Position numbers and translations under genes: made by a program
Part shown: positions 29,550-32,624 of the stretch, piece after piece
Layout of the letters: each line of letters starts with the position of its first letter
Numbering within the stretch: the stretch's first letter is position 1
The notes under the pieces: model-generated
Told to the model about the DNA's origin: nothing
The model's database searches: none
What the model saw: only the letters and a program-made list of their open reading frames with translations
Source: Bacteroidales bacterium
Lineage (GTDB): Bacteria > Bacteroidota > Bacteroidia > Bacteroidales > JAIOZK01
Direction of reading: 5' to 3'
DNA length: 36,051 nucleotides
Assembly (NCBI GenBank): GCA_021740625.1
Contig: JAIOZK010000036.1
Coordinates: forward strand, 1-36,051

Positions 29550-30950
29550 ATGAAAAATCAAAAACACGAACAGGATACCATATGCGCCCTGGCTACTCCG
29601 CCCGGATCGGCTGCCATTGCTGTGATCCGTGTCTCGGGTCCCGATACATTTCTCATCCTTGAAAAAATTTTCAAACCCAAAAACAAGCAGGTTAATATTT
29701 CCAAATCCCCTGCCTATAAAATTTATTTCGGTACCATAGGAGATGAAAGGGAGCTGATCGATGAGGTATTGCTCAGTATTTTCAAAAACCCGAATTCATA
29801 TACTGGCGAAGATGCTGTGGAAATTTCCTGTCATGGATCGGAATACATCCAGCAAAAAATCATTGAAAGCCTGATCGACCATGGCGCCCGCCTGGCCAAC
29901 CCGGGAGAGTTCACCATGCGTGCCTTTGTGAATGGAAAGTTTGATCTTTCGCAGGCAGAAGCTGTTGCCGACCTGATTGCTTCGAATTCAAAAAGTAGTC
30001 ATGATCTTGCACTGGAACAAATGCGGGGTGGTTTTTCAAGCAAAATCAAAGAACTCAGGCAGCAATTGCTCGACTTTGTTTCCCTGATAGAGCTTGAACT
30101 GGACTTCAGCGAGGAGGATGTGGAATTTGCAGACAGAAAACAGTTGTTTGACCTGCTTGACACCCTGAAGCAAGAATTGAAAAAGCTGGTGGATTCCTTT
30201 AAGCTGGGAAATGTTTTAAAGCGTGGTATTCCTGTAGCCATCATCGGAAAGCCCAATGTCGGGAAATCCACTTTGCTGAATGCCATCCTGAACGAAGAAA
30301 AGGCCATTGTTTCCGAGATCCCCGGCACCACCCGGGATGTGATCGAGGATACCATTATCATTGATGGATATTCTTTCCGCTTCATTGATACGGCCGGTTT
30401 GCGCCATTCAGGGGATACCATTGAAACGATGGGCATAGAACGCACCCGGGAAAAGATCGCTCAGGCCAGCATCATCCTTTACATCTGCGATATTAGCGAA
30501 TGCACCATTGATGGGCTGGATGAAATCCTGGCGGAATTCAAGGAATACATCAACCACAAAAGCAAGCGCTTCATACTGATCGGCAACAAAATCGACAAGC
30601 TGGAAGAAATGCCGAAAAAATTCAAAGAACTGGTCGACCTGGAAACTATCTTCGTCTCAGCCAAACGCAAGGAAAATATCAGCCTCATCACCGATAGCCT
30701 GCTGAAATCCGTTAAAAAACAAAAAGTCTCCGACCGGACCATTGTCTCCAACACACGCCATTACGAAGCATTGAAAAAAGCGCTTGAGTCTGTTCAAAAT
30801 GTAGACAAAGGGTTGAAAGACGGACTTCCCTCAGATCTGGTGACCATTGACATCCGGCAGGCGCTGCATTACCTGGGGAGTATCACAGGAGAGATATCGA
30901 CGGATGAGATTTTGGGAAATATTTTTGGGAAGTTCTGCATCGGAAAGTAA
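29550..30950 (+). CDS. mnmE: tRNA modification GTPase MnmE (TrmE)
   Basis: This 466-residue protein is MnmE, which with MnmG installs 5-carboxymethylaminomethyl on U34 of certain tRNAs. The N-terminal folate-binding domain contains ATPPGSAAIAVIRVSG and the NGKFDLSQAEAVADLI block. The G domain sits inside a helical domain: GKPNVGKS (233-240, P-loop), GTTRD, DTAGLR, NKID. The C-terminal GKFCIGK carries the catalytic Cys. The protein is complete; the mobile element begins exactly at its end and leaves the last codons intact. ATG 29550 gives the normal N-terminus. No transcription terminator is visible after it, probably because the native 3' flank was displaced by the element. Confidence 0.95.
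   Translation: MKNQKHEQDTICALATPPGSAAIAVIRVSGPDTFLILEKIFKPKNKQVNISKSPAYKIYFGTIGDERELIDEVLLSIFKNPNSYTGEDAVEISCHGSEYIQQKIIESLIDHGARLANPGEFTMRAFVNGKFDLSQAEAVADLIASNSKSSHDLALEQMRGGFSSKIKELRQQLLDFVSLIELELDFSEEDVEFADRKQLFDLLDTLKQELKKLVDSFKLGNVLKRGIPVAIIGKPNVGKSTLLNAILNEEKAIVSEIPGTTRDVIEDTIIIDGYSFRFIDTAGLRHSGDTIETMGIERTREKIAQASIILYICDISECTIDGLDEILAEFKEYINHKSKRFILIGNKIDKLEEMPKKFKELVDLETIFVSAKRKENISLITDSLLKSVKKQKVSDRTIVSNTRHYEALKKALESVQNVDKGLKDGLPSDLVTIDIRQALHYLGSITGEISTDEILGNIFGKFCIGK
30933..30950 (+). other. Probable left attachment site core in the mnmE 3' end
   Basis: TTCTGCATCGGAAAGTAA are the last 18 bases of mnmE, encoding the C-terminal FCIGK and stop. SGI1-type islands integrate at the corresponding 18 bases of trmE in Gammaproteobacteria, and this sequence matches that site apart from a few synonymous differences. 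The integrase gene follows within 600 bases. The second copy (right end) is not in the window, so exact limits are unproven. Confidence 0.6.
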
Positions 30951-31016
30951 ACCATTTTCCTTTATTTGTTATTACCCTTCATTTACTGCACTTTATAGCA
31001 TTTTATTTTCTTTTAT

Positions 31017-31088
31017 TTGTTGCCCATTTATTCTTTTTTGTTTATTTTTGTTGTGCAGTTGTTGCCCAGTATTTCATATTTGTTGCCC
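31017..31088 (+). repeat. Four TTGTT repeats at exact 21-bp spacing (three are TTGTTGCCC)
   Basis: TTGTTGCCC occurs at 31017, 31059 and 31080, and TTGTTTATT at 31038, so TTGTT recurs four times at exact 21-bp steps. The last copy continues into CAACAA, giving a TTGTTG-CCCGA-CAACAA inverted repeat (31080-31096). A looser TTGTT..ACCC copy lies at 30966. Two helical turns per step puts all copies on one DNA face, as expected for arm-type integrase sites. There is no open frame here. Confidence 0.65.
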
Positions 31089-31111
31089 GACAACAAGACT
31101 GGTGAAATGAT

Positions 31112-31171
31112 GGCAGTAATTGACAGCTTATGACAGTAATAGACACTTAAAGGCAGTTGATGGCATGAGTA
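31112..31171 (+). repeat. Six GRCA repeats at exact 10-bp spacing across the xis-like start codon
   Basis: Six consecutive 10-mers begin with GRCA: GGCAGTAATT, GACAGCTTAT, GACAGTAATA, GACACTTAAA, GGCAGTTGAT and GGCATGAGTA. The ATG of the excisionase-like gene (31165) lies inside the last one. One helical turn per step suits cooperative binding by an excisionase on one DNA face, and its position fits autoregulation. Confidence 0.65.
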
Positions 31172-31533
31172 GCAACATTGAAGTTCAAAAGGTATGTGAA
31201 TTTTGCGGAAAGGAATTTACCGCCAAAACTACCGTTACCCGCTTTTGCAGTCATGGCTGTGCTTCACGATCCTATAAGCAACGGAAGAAGGAAAACAAGA
31301 TAGGCAAAGCCATTGAGGAAACCAACCAACAAAAACTACTATCTCTCACCGAACTCAACCTGGAAGCCATCAAACAAAAGGATTTTCTTTCCATCAAAGA
31401 AGCCCATACCCTGCTGGGATTAAGTGAACGAACATTTTACAGGCTATTGAAAGCCGGAACCATCCAGGCGGTCAGGTTGGGTAAACGTACCATTATTAAA
31501 CGCTCTGAAATCGATAAACTTTTTGCATCATGA
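31165..31533 (+). CDS. Excisionase-like HTH protein with an N-terminal zinc-finger-like motif
   Basis: From ATG 31165 this is a 122-residue protein. Residues about 9-33 hold a four-Cys pattern, VCEFCGKEF...[15 protein letters not shown], like a small zinc ribbon. Residues about 70-120 form an excisionase/MerR-type [51 protein letters not shown]. Such proteins bend DNA at the attachment site and set the direction of integrase. The 10-bp GRCA array overlaps its start codon and is a candidate binding site. An upstream in-frame TTG (31120) is unlikely because the ATG follows the array and lies next to the Cys motif. It shares the ATGA overlap with the integrase gene, so the two are translationally coupled. 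Confidence 0.75.
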
Positions 31534-32624
31534 AGGTAACCCTGCGACAAAGAAACAAAAACGGGAAAGTCAGTTTGTATCTTGACTACTATCATAAAGG
31601 TAAGCGTAAGTACGAATATCTCAGGCTTTACCTGATCGATAAGCCCCGTTCTGCTGAGGAAAGAAGCTTCAATAAGAAGACCTCCCAATTGGCAGAAAGT
31701 ATCCGTGCAAAGAGGCAACTGGAATTACAGAATGGTATCTATGGGTTCAATGATTCAGAAAAGATCAATTCAATCTTCCTGACTTACTTTGAATTGCTAG
31801 CAGAAAAGCGTAGGGATTCGGATGGCAATTACGGCAACTGGCTGAGTGCATTAAAACACCTGAAAAGCTGGGAGAAATCAAATGTCCGCTTCGCTGACAT
31901 TGATAAGGATTGGCTGGAAGACCTGAAACACTATCTTGTGCATGATGCGAAAACAAAACAGGGCAGAAATCTTTCTAAAAACTCCTGTGTTTCCTATTTT
32001 AATAAGGTACGTGCTGCGTTAAAGGAAGCTGTAAAGGATGGCATCATTGTTCGCAATCCTGCCGAAAGTATTGAAGGGATAAAAGAAGCTGAGACCAAAA
32101 GAGAGTTTTTAACCCTGGAGGAATTGAAAAAGGCTGTTAAAGCACACTGCGAAATTGAAGTTGTGAAAAATGCTTTCATTTTCAGCGCCCTTACAGGATT
32201 GAGGTTCTCAGACATTGAGAAACTTACCTGGTCGGAAATCCAACATTCTGATGCAAATGGTTACTATATCCGATTCAAGCAAAAGAAAACCAAAGGTCAG
32301 GAAACCCTGCCCATAGCGGATGATGCATTGCAATTCATGGGTGAACGCAAGGAAGGTAATGAAAAAGTATTTAAGGATCTTACTTACAGCGATTACAACA
32401 ATGCCAAAATCCGTGAATGGATGATTCGAGCCGGAGTTGAAAAGCACATCACGTTTCATTGTGCCCGACATACCTATGCTACCCTTCAACTGACATTAGG
32501 AACCGACATTTACACAGTATCGAAACTCTTAGGCCATAAGAGCCTGAAAACAACAGAAGTGTACGCAAAGATTATTGACCAGAAGAAAAAAGAAGCCGCC
32601 AACCGTATAAAACTTGACCTATGA
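31530..32624 (+). CDS. Tyrosine recombinase (site-specific integrase) of the element
   Basis: This 364-residue phage-type integrase has an N-terminal arm-binding part (about 1-85: [28 protein letters not shown]-type beta sheet), a SAM-like core-binding domain (about 90-185) and a catalytic domain. Catalytic residues are Arg225 (TGLRFSD), His310 and Arg313 (HCARH), His336 (GHKS) and Tyr345 (VYAKI); Lys in QKKTKG fits the beta-hairpin site. It would recombine the mnmE 3' end with the circular element. It overlaps the xis-like gene by ATGA and the next gene by ATGA. Similar integrases open Bacteroidetes mobilisable transposons. Confidence 0.9.

Follow-up and report, generated by a model that had tools for sequence, protein, structure and literature searches.

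Six direct repeats of 10 bp lie directly upstream of, and run into, the start codon of P0001, a small protein predicted to carry a winged helix-turn-helix (wHTH), at the int-side end of an integrative element located in the 3' end of mnmE. These repeats are probably the operator and the attachment-arm site of P0001 itself: the protein would bind them as a cooperative head-to-tail filament, read the bases directly through its residues 88, 89, and 93, turn down its own operon, and shape the attachment arm. Based on the comparison of sequences described below, we assign this reading a probability of about 0.72.

The element and its insertion site

The stretch of DNA that was analyzed as a whole, called the window in the following, is an entire contig (G000:C12) of a draft genome and comprises 36,051 bases. 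The reading frame of MnmE terminates at position 30950, and the 18-mer at its end (30933..30950, plus strand; TTCTGCATCGGAAAGTAA), which we consider the attachment core, recurs in related genomes. In 8 of the 20 genomes searched, the contig carrying the P0001 homologue has a second copy of this core (at most one mismatch to the pattern) at a distance of about 8 to 39 kb; we therefore consider these elements to be integrated at the 3' end of mnmE. Arm-like sites are present inside the second core copy. The contig does not extend to the far end of the element in the window. Judging from the record titles, the relatives of this element are found in Bacteroidota.

The 3' end of mnmE (30933–30950) serves as the site for many Bacteroidota elements, and mnmE (trmE) is also a listed site of SGI1 and MGIVchHai6 (PMC5704250). 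On one contig (G194, C1), three successive mnmE-end cores are located at 395719, 401993, and 426532; this row of cores suggests stacked elements. Another locus (L183) contains an apparent partial copy of the mnmE end.

A non-coding stretch of 214 bp separates the end of MnmE from P0001. It is followed by the genes for P0001 (31165..31533, plus strand), a tyrosine integrase, a DUF6617 protein, two HTH_17 proteins, and a BT4734-like protein, in this order. The integrase (31530..32624, plus strand), whose gene overlaps the stop codon of P0001, contains Arm-DNA-bind_5, SAM-like, and catalytic domains and is 34% identical to the integrase of Tn4555. The HTH_17 proteins encoded downstream, P0004 and P0005, are 99 and 97 amino acids long, respectively. 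P0004 (33847..34146, plus strand), a second protein of the HTH_17/excise type after P0001, resembles the excisionase-family protein of Tn4555 (36% over 56 residues).

The decamer array and its conservation in related elements

The predicted P0001 binding array (31112..31171, plus strand) reads GGCAGTAATT GACAGCTTAT GACAGTAATA GACACTTAAA GGCAGTTGAT GGCATGAGTA, with motif base 1, a G, at 31112, 31122, 31132, 31142, 31152, and 31162. A preliminary description of this DNA had reported six GRCA decamers at a 10-bp step, the last of which spans the P0001 ATG at 31165. Both observations hold: the decamers can be read in the sequence, they are conserved in relatives, and the last one does contain the start codon.

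On both strands of the 36-kb window, this is the only period-10 run of at least three GRCA words. The chance expectation for a run of six is about 1e-8, a post hoc figure, as the pattern was chosen after the fact. In a pattern-free self-match test confined to the window, the array was unremarkable, with 24/40 matches at lag 10; other stretches equaled or exceeded this value, the top one reaching 25/40 at 30969. The window statistics alone do not decide the matter, and we judge the array to be real because of its conservation in homologous loci.

Thirty-five loci were drawn from genome contigs, and L002–L032 of these were used. Whole-genome searches for P0001 relatives matched 65 of 395 genomes of the class (E ≤ 0.001), 64 of 393 genomes of the order (E ≤ 1e-12), and 36 of 296 genomes of another order (E ≤ 1e-12). 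After duplicates and partial matches were dropped, the final set contained 135 non-redundant loci, including the window. The loci dropped were L001, L108, L033–L036, and L066–L080 (the window copy, a 52-bp stub, and matches that were weak or partial), four loci that lacked a start codon, and 18 near-duplicates; 15 partial or weak relatives on viral contigs were also left out. Among the 135 loci, mnmE is a neighbor in 110, and an integrase match is a neighbor in 118.

Periodicity in the 90 bp preceding the start codon was compared to Markov shuffles, and stretches 297–390 bp upstream were used as controls. A lag-10 periodicity with p < 0.01 was present in 95 of the 135 upstream regions, compared to 1 of the 130 control stretches, and a chance origin of the array was rejected. 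The periodic regions include 85 of the 110 loci with mnmE at most 600 bp upstream and 10 of the 25 loci without it. Forty of the 135 loci fail at p < 0.01 and 23 fail at p < 0.05; several have no visible array.

Mean self-identity over positions -75 to +6, calculated for all 135 loci without selection, was 0.453, 0.413, 0.377, and 0.345 at lags 10, 20, 30, and 40, respectively. The other lags up to 45 gave values of 0.25–0.30, and lags 21 and 31 were at background. The step of the lattice is 10.0 bp, not 10.5. In 100 of the 135 loci the array score was at least 10; inside these selected arrays, self-identity was 0.53–0.65 at lags 10 to 60, values that reflect arrays chosen for 10-bp repeats. 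The arrays comprise 4–8 units, and the best-scoring run extends into the start codon in 31 of the 100. The clearest exception to the 10-bp rule is L104, in which an 11-bp lattice of GAAACAT words is located upstream of the P0001 homologue.

We scanned 21 loci with their own motifs. The arrays scored 34–55, and nothing comparable occurred elsewhere in these loci except for reverse-strand matches within the array. No comparable second array was detected at the far end or in mnmE, either in the own-motif scan of the 21 loci or in eight far-end stretches (nine were fetched), none of which was clearly above shuffles. On this result, we rejected the idea of such an array as a bridging target. Weak second matches above the shuffle maximum occur in several loci (for instance the window, L010, L015, L004, and L028). 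The one in the window is on the reverse strand at 30957–30996 and scores 14.5 vs. 10.6 ± 1.1 for shuffles, with a self score of 41.2. It lies between the core and the arm-type sites, around a CATTTACTGCACTTTA stretch that is partly conserved in close relatives, and is perhaps an extra site.

Array words vary between elements

In the preliminary description, GRCA was treated as the feature that homologous elements should keep in phase. The 10-bp lattice is indeed kept in most homologous elements, but the GRCA word is often replaced: the constant feature is the 10.0-bp lattice, and other words occur in phase. At least three GRCA words in 10-bp phase are present in 20 of the 135 loci, and 19 of these 20 have Arg at residue 89 of P0001, like the window. 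Repeated GRCAG is found in eight loci, all with the SERTF(Y/F)R helix of the window. Placed in a common register (G1 N2 N3 A4 C5 A6), the words include GRCAGT (the group of the window), GRCACA, GATACA, GTTACA, GCWACA, GCACCA, GAAACA, and GACACTTAAA. In L008, GATATGTAAA is repeated in tandem, almost without differences, upstream of 2240; this pattern suggests re-amplification of arrays from a single unit, apparently recent in this case.

Covariation between P0001 and the array

Covariation was calculated for 97 loci (effective number 52); three of the 100 array loci were omitted because of gaps in the helix, and columns with more than 90% of one residue were omitted as well. The resulting 106 variable P0001 columns and 10 motif positions gave 1060 pairs. 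The top three background-corrected couplings among these were R89 with base 3, E88 with base 5, and R93 with base 1; bases 1 and 5 may be favored here, because the register of each motif was chosen by its similarity to the mean motif. A structure model places the recognition helix of P0001 at residues 88–97 (31426..31455, plus strand). In the model (mean pLDDT 85, pTM 0.47) this helix begins at residue 88, and the coupled residues 88, 89, and 93 would be helix residues 1, 2, and 6. Helix positions 1, 2, and 6 are classic reading positions (PMC5045206).

W89 occurs together with C2 in 14 of 14 loci, compared to 2 of 83 loci with other residues. The corresponding values are 8/8 vs. 19/89 for M89 with T3, 41/49 vs. 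5/48 for R89 with C3, 63/64 vs. 14/33 for R93 with G1, and 9/10 vs. 2/87 for E88 with G5. The window, which combines E88, R89, and R93 with GRCAG, matches this code. Six of the eight R89-C3 exceptions belong to a single group of relatives whose helices read TKRSVYNL or SKRCVYDL; this group may have been placed in the wrong register.

Ranked by permutation Z, the first four pairs were R93-1, R89-2, R89-3, and R104-6, with E88-5 only in 12th place. In a pair statistic for loci less than 50% identical, R93-1 and R89-3 lead after K38, and E88-5 is sixth; K38 topped this list because it is nearly invariant and was rejected as a coupled residue. As predictors of the word between loci less than 45% identical, residues 88/89/93 outperformed 2235 of the 2237 usable random triples drawn from non-helix columns; other helix triples containing R89 predict somewhat better than 88/89/93. 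In a joint test with integrase columns (80 loci), R89-base 3 ranked first, integrase columns 61 and 56 were second and third, and E88-5 and R93-1 were fourth and sixth, respectively. A tree built without the helix contained just one to three supported independent pairs per trait, and shared descent is not fully removable from these associations; the tree-based contrasts pointed in the same direction or showed no difference, were rarely opposite, and none was significant.

From this covariation, P0001 very probably reads the array. The preliminary description had named the small HTH protein as the reader, and this part is supported; the filament with one protomer per turn that it also proposed would correspond to the known binding mode of structural relatives.

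Prediction of array words in further loci

The hold-out set was derived from 52 further loci. Forty-six of these were fetched after the main covariation test; the other six, plasmid records, were fetched after the first pair test and viewed by eye before the hold-out. One locus without a start codon and 11 near-duplicates were removed, which resulted in 40 new non-redundant cases. Thirteen cases with an array score below 10 (among them one W89 locus, L239) and one with a gapped helix (L237) were then left out, and the remaining 26 have clear arrays.

Residue 89 predicted base 3 correctly in 20 of 24 cases, compared to 8 of 24 when the commonest base is always guessed. Little or nothing was gained for base 1 (19 vs. 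17 of 23), base 2 (17 vs. 14 of 24), and base 5 (20 vs. 20 of 23). Among the individual pairs, W89-C2 was observed in 7/7, M89-T3 in 4/4, R89-C3 in 6/6, and R93-G1 in 16/19 hold-out cases, and E88-G5 had zero cases.

Relationship of P0001 to TnpA and to excisionases

P0001 is 122 residues long and is predicted to consist of a four-cysteine, zinc-ribbon-like N-terminus, a long helix (41 residues in the model), and a winged HTH of the HTH_17/excise type. The cysteines C11, C14, C28, and C32 are invariant in 26 sequences. HTH_17 and TIGR01764 scored above cut-off, and the winged HTH is of the excisionase type. A Foldseek search with the P0001 model returned nothing at E ≤ 0.001, the best value being 1.9e-3. 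Among solved structures, those of Pukovnik Xis (Z 8.9), BldC (8.3), RdfS (7.4), and the lambda Xis filament (6.3) rank near the top for the HTH part; the structure search was dominated by the HTH (residues 72–122). P0001 is not a stand-alone wHTH of about 68 residues, as is the BldC type. As expected for a recombination directionality factor (RDF), its gene adjoins that of a tyrosine integrase, and direct repeats one helix turn apart are located near att; that these are the sites of P0001 is suggested by the covariation.

Over the zinc-ribbon-like and HTH part, P0001 is homologous to TnpA of Tn4555 (BLASTP 5e-15; hhalign probability 99.4 over 105 columns), and it corresponds to approximately the first third of TnpA. 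The layout is also that of the TnpA family, with the gene directly upstream of int and a separate excisionase-like gene downstream. The DUF6617 protein, P0003, gave an E of 2.2 against TnpC in a single-sequence comparison only. Repeats in 10-bp phase also occur upstream of Tn4555 tnpA. By eye, two separate stretches of phased TTKAC-like words can be seen upstream of tnpA (2983) in L187; a four-KAC run at L193:2860 is the sole run of at least three in 14 kb. The preliminary description called the P0001 gene xis-like. To name P0001 an excisionase is unjustified, since in Tn4555 the excisionase-family gene is a separate one located downstream, which is resembled here by P0004. P0001 is instead a homologue of TnpA.

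With this homology, P0001 could be mainly an accessory of target selection or integration, like TnpA, with a filament that steers the integrase and with autoregulation secondary or absent. Its location just upstream of int, the same as that of tnpA, and the phased repeats upstream of tnpA fit this role, and, according to a review, deletion of tnpA renders Tn4555 insertion essentially random (PMC5704250). We nevertheless treat it as a possibility short of probable. Own-motif scans of the mnmE side in the 21 loci and of the eight far-end stretches revealed no comparable array, the placement of the array in the leader of its own operon suits regulation, and TnpA has three extra HTH-like stretches that are absent from P0001 (by eye; one aligns).

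We are similarly hesitant about P0001 as the excisionase of the element, with the array as its attachment-arm site, in the manner of Apl, TorI, and lambda Xis. The fold and the type of array are those of excisionases, and the TorI sites of KplE1 and the repression of int by an att-bound RDF are close parallels. Against this role, two further HTH_17 proteins, P0004 and P0005, are encoded downstream, the former with its resemblance to the Tn4555 excisionase-family protein; moreover, the array is located outside the arm-type sites and the core, not between them.

Probable arm-type sites, predicted promoter, and leader

The word TTGTTGCCC occurs at 31017, 31059, and 31080, in variant form at 31048, and inverted at 31090 (31017..31096, in both orientations). 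These repeated words were previously described as a 21-bp array. The words are present, but their steps are 42 and 21. Related elements carry such words close to the core at their far end as well, and the best reading of the words is therefore as probable arm-type sites of the integrase. With this reading, the combination of two periods, earlier regarded as an unrecognized architecture, would instead be an attachment-site arm adjoining an operator. In 8 of 9 far-end stretches, TTGTTGCC or TTGTACC, depending on the element, is located some 35–50 bp inside the core (by eye). The putative arm word is TTGTTGCCC in 37 of the 135 loci and TTGTACC in 67; 31 are undecided. Where both ends are seen in L178–L186, the far-end arm word mostly follows (by eye); L180 has one of each.

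A promoter of the form TTTG-N23-TATTTTTG is predicted at 31016..31050 (plus strand). We take it to be an instance of the Bacteroidota -33/-7 pattern; its spacing is at the edge of the allowed 17–23. In 134 loci, TAnnTTTG is commonest 100–140 bp before the start codon, and the full two-box pattern is present in 28 of these. Since the predicted promoter is upstream of the array, the array would be in the transcribed leader and start-codon region, and bound P0001 would act as a roadblock or through occlusion, and not on the promoter. The direct autorepression by P0001 that the preliminary description suggested is plausible.

The box GGTGAAATGATG (31101..31112, plus strand) directly precedes the first repeat. 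A box of this kind (GG..GARA..NTG; GGNGAAATNATG-like) precedes the first repeat in 44 of the 135 loci, among differing array words. The box in the window is possibly the start codon of a leader. A conserved leader peptide is not supported, as the lengths differ between relatives (by eye).

An alternative is that the repeats control translation, through the RNA or by encoding short leader peptides, and are not DNA sites. Their location within the predicted transcribed leader and the NTG-like box in 44 of the 135 loci would agree with this, but the leader reading frames vary in length among relatives (by eye), the strict 10.0-bp lattice is a property of the DNA helix and not of codons, and the coupling to a DNA-recognition helix would be left unexplained; we regard this alternative as very improbable. 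Still less credible, and rejected here, are decamers that serve as arm sites of the integrase: they are located in the attachment arm, and in the joint test high-ranking couplings of motif bases 3 and 4 involve integrase columns 61 and 56, but a likelier integrase word (TTGTTGCCC or TTGTACC) is present at both ends, the P0001 recognition helix gives the strongest coupling, and no comparable array was found in the eight far-end stretches.

A model for P0001 and its array

From the lattice, its conservation, the coupling between residues and bases, and the hold-out prediction, we infer that P0001 may bind the array, form a filament on it, repress its own operon, and affect recombination. One P0001 protomer would dock its winged HTH on each decamer. 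With a step of exactly 10.0 bp, every protomer would be on the same face of the DNA, and adjacent protomers would bind cooperatively, head to tail, to form a short filament. Relaxed B-DNA has 10.5 bp per turn, and a filament with one protomer per unit would wind the DNA slightly tighter than that. Readout of the bases would be direct, with residues 88, 89, and 93 reading motif bases 5, 3, and 1; in the element of the window, E88, R89, and R93 would read G-R-C-A-G. The filament would occupy the leader of the P0001-int operon, with the probable arm-type sites of the integrase on one side and the start codon on the other. There, it would most likely lower the expression of its own operon through blocking transcript elongation or translation start, and most likely would also shape the int-side arm for recombination at mnmE.

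Comparison with known systems

Head-to-tail binding with one protomer per turn is a known mode of Xis, Apl, and BldC. Apl of phage 186 has short operators in the form of direct repeats with a spacing of one helix turn; seven of them are located between pR and pL, and five at att (PMC7498355). The array in the window likewise consists of direct repeats spaced by a helix turn, and Apl spreads cooperatively and represses promoters (PMC7498355). The spacing for Apl is 10–11 bp, whereas it is exactly 10 bp in the P0001 arrays; Apl monomers are described as having low sequence specificity, and the passages cited here from PMC7498355 mention no zinc-ribbon-like domain for Apl. TnpA of Tn4555, which is described as affecting the choice of the insertion site (PMC5704250), shares with P0001 the homologous N-terminal 105 residues, the location upstream of int, and the phased KAC repeats before the gene. 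However, TnpA is 311 amino acids long, contains further HTH-like stretches, and carries Q and K at the positions of R89 and R93.

BldC of Streptomyces also has a MerR-like wHTH and forms head-to-tail multimers on direct repeats, and Arg30 and Lys26 of its recognition helix contact bases (PMC5859096). It differs in being a 68-residue chromosomal regulator with an AT-rich wing readout, and its binding at smeA-sffA is not strictly consensus-dependent (PMC11963761). Glu19 and Arg23 of lambda Xis contact bases (PMC7145599). In both BldC (Arg30/Lys26) and lambda Xis (Arg23/Glu19), these residues are four apart, like residues 93 and 89 in P0001; we propose that these pairs are equivalent.

RdfS of ICEMlSymR7A is a further wHTH protein that forms filaments; its targets are attP and its own promoter, and it is called autoregulating (PMC11963761). 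For RdfS, that work found no consensus motif and proposes indirect readout (PMC11963761), whereas the P0001 arrays have a sharp, element-specific motif with signs of direct readout. In the lambda Xis microfilament, the protomers occupy adjacent sites (PMC7145599). Lambda Xis has three sites in attR and is assisted by Fis, whereas the P0001 arrays have 4–8 units on the int side. The location of the window array, outside the arm-type sites and on the int side only, is presumably also unlike the lambda layout.

TorI of KplE1 has five cooperative sites on attL. Apl, KplE1 TorI, and RdfS couple excision with promoter control and are close functional precedents; further literature is found in PMC8138268, PMC13183296, and PMC3509656. 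Excisionase-like filament proteins have been described as weakly specific or indirect readers (PMC7498355, PMC11963761), and a limited literature search found no description of a residue-base code for excisionase-like proteins. Helix-phased operator arrays of excisionase-like wHTH proteins are known; the TnpA-type family, the exact 10.0-bp lattice, and the legible residue-base code appear to be new.

Implications

A more speculative extension, which we consider unlikely as a whole, is that the P0001/TnpA-type proteins and their arrays represent a natural, diversifying address code. The filament-forming wHTH proteins would read the DNA directly, the word of the whole array would be rewritten whenever residues 88/89/93 change, and the private words would function as an incompatibility system. 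Selection may favor private words because many such elements use mnmE and can stack there. If the idea is true, private words could keep co-resident elements that share mnmE from mutual regulation or recombination; the five co-resident pairs that we looked at are too few for a test of incompatibility.

The approximately 120 natural pairs of protein and array (97 plus 26 from the hold-out) constitute a test set for the specificity of wHTH filaments while the site evolves as a whole array. For TnpA of Tn4555, which is implicated in target choice, a concrete candidate DNA site is now given. With a residue-base code of this kind, the operators of many integrative elements in Bacteroidota would become predictable from sequence.
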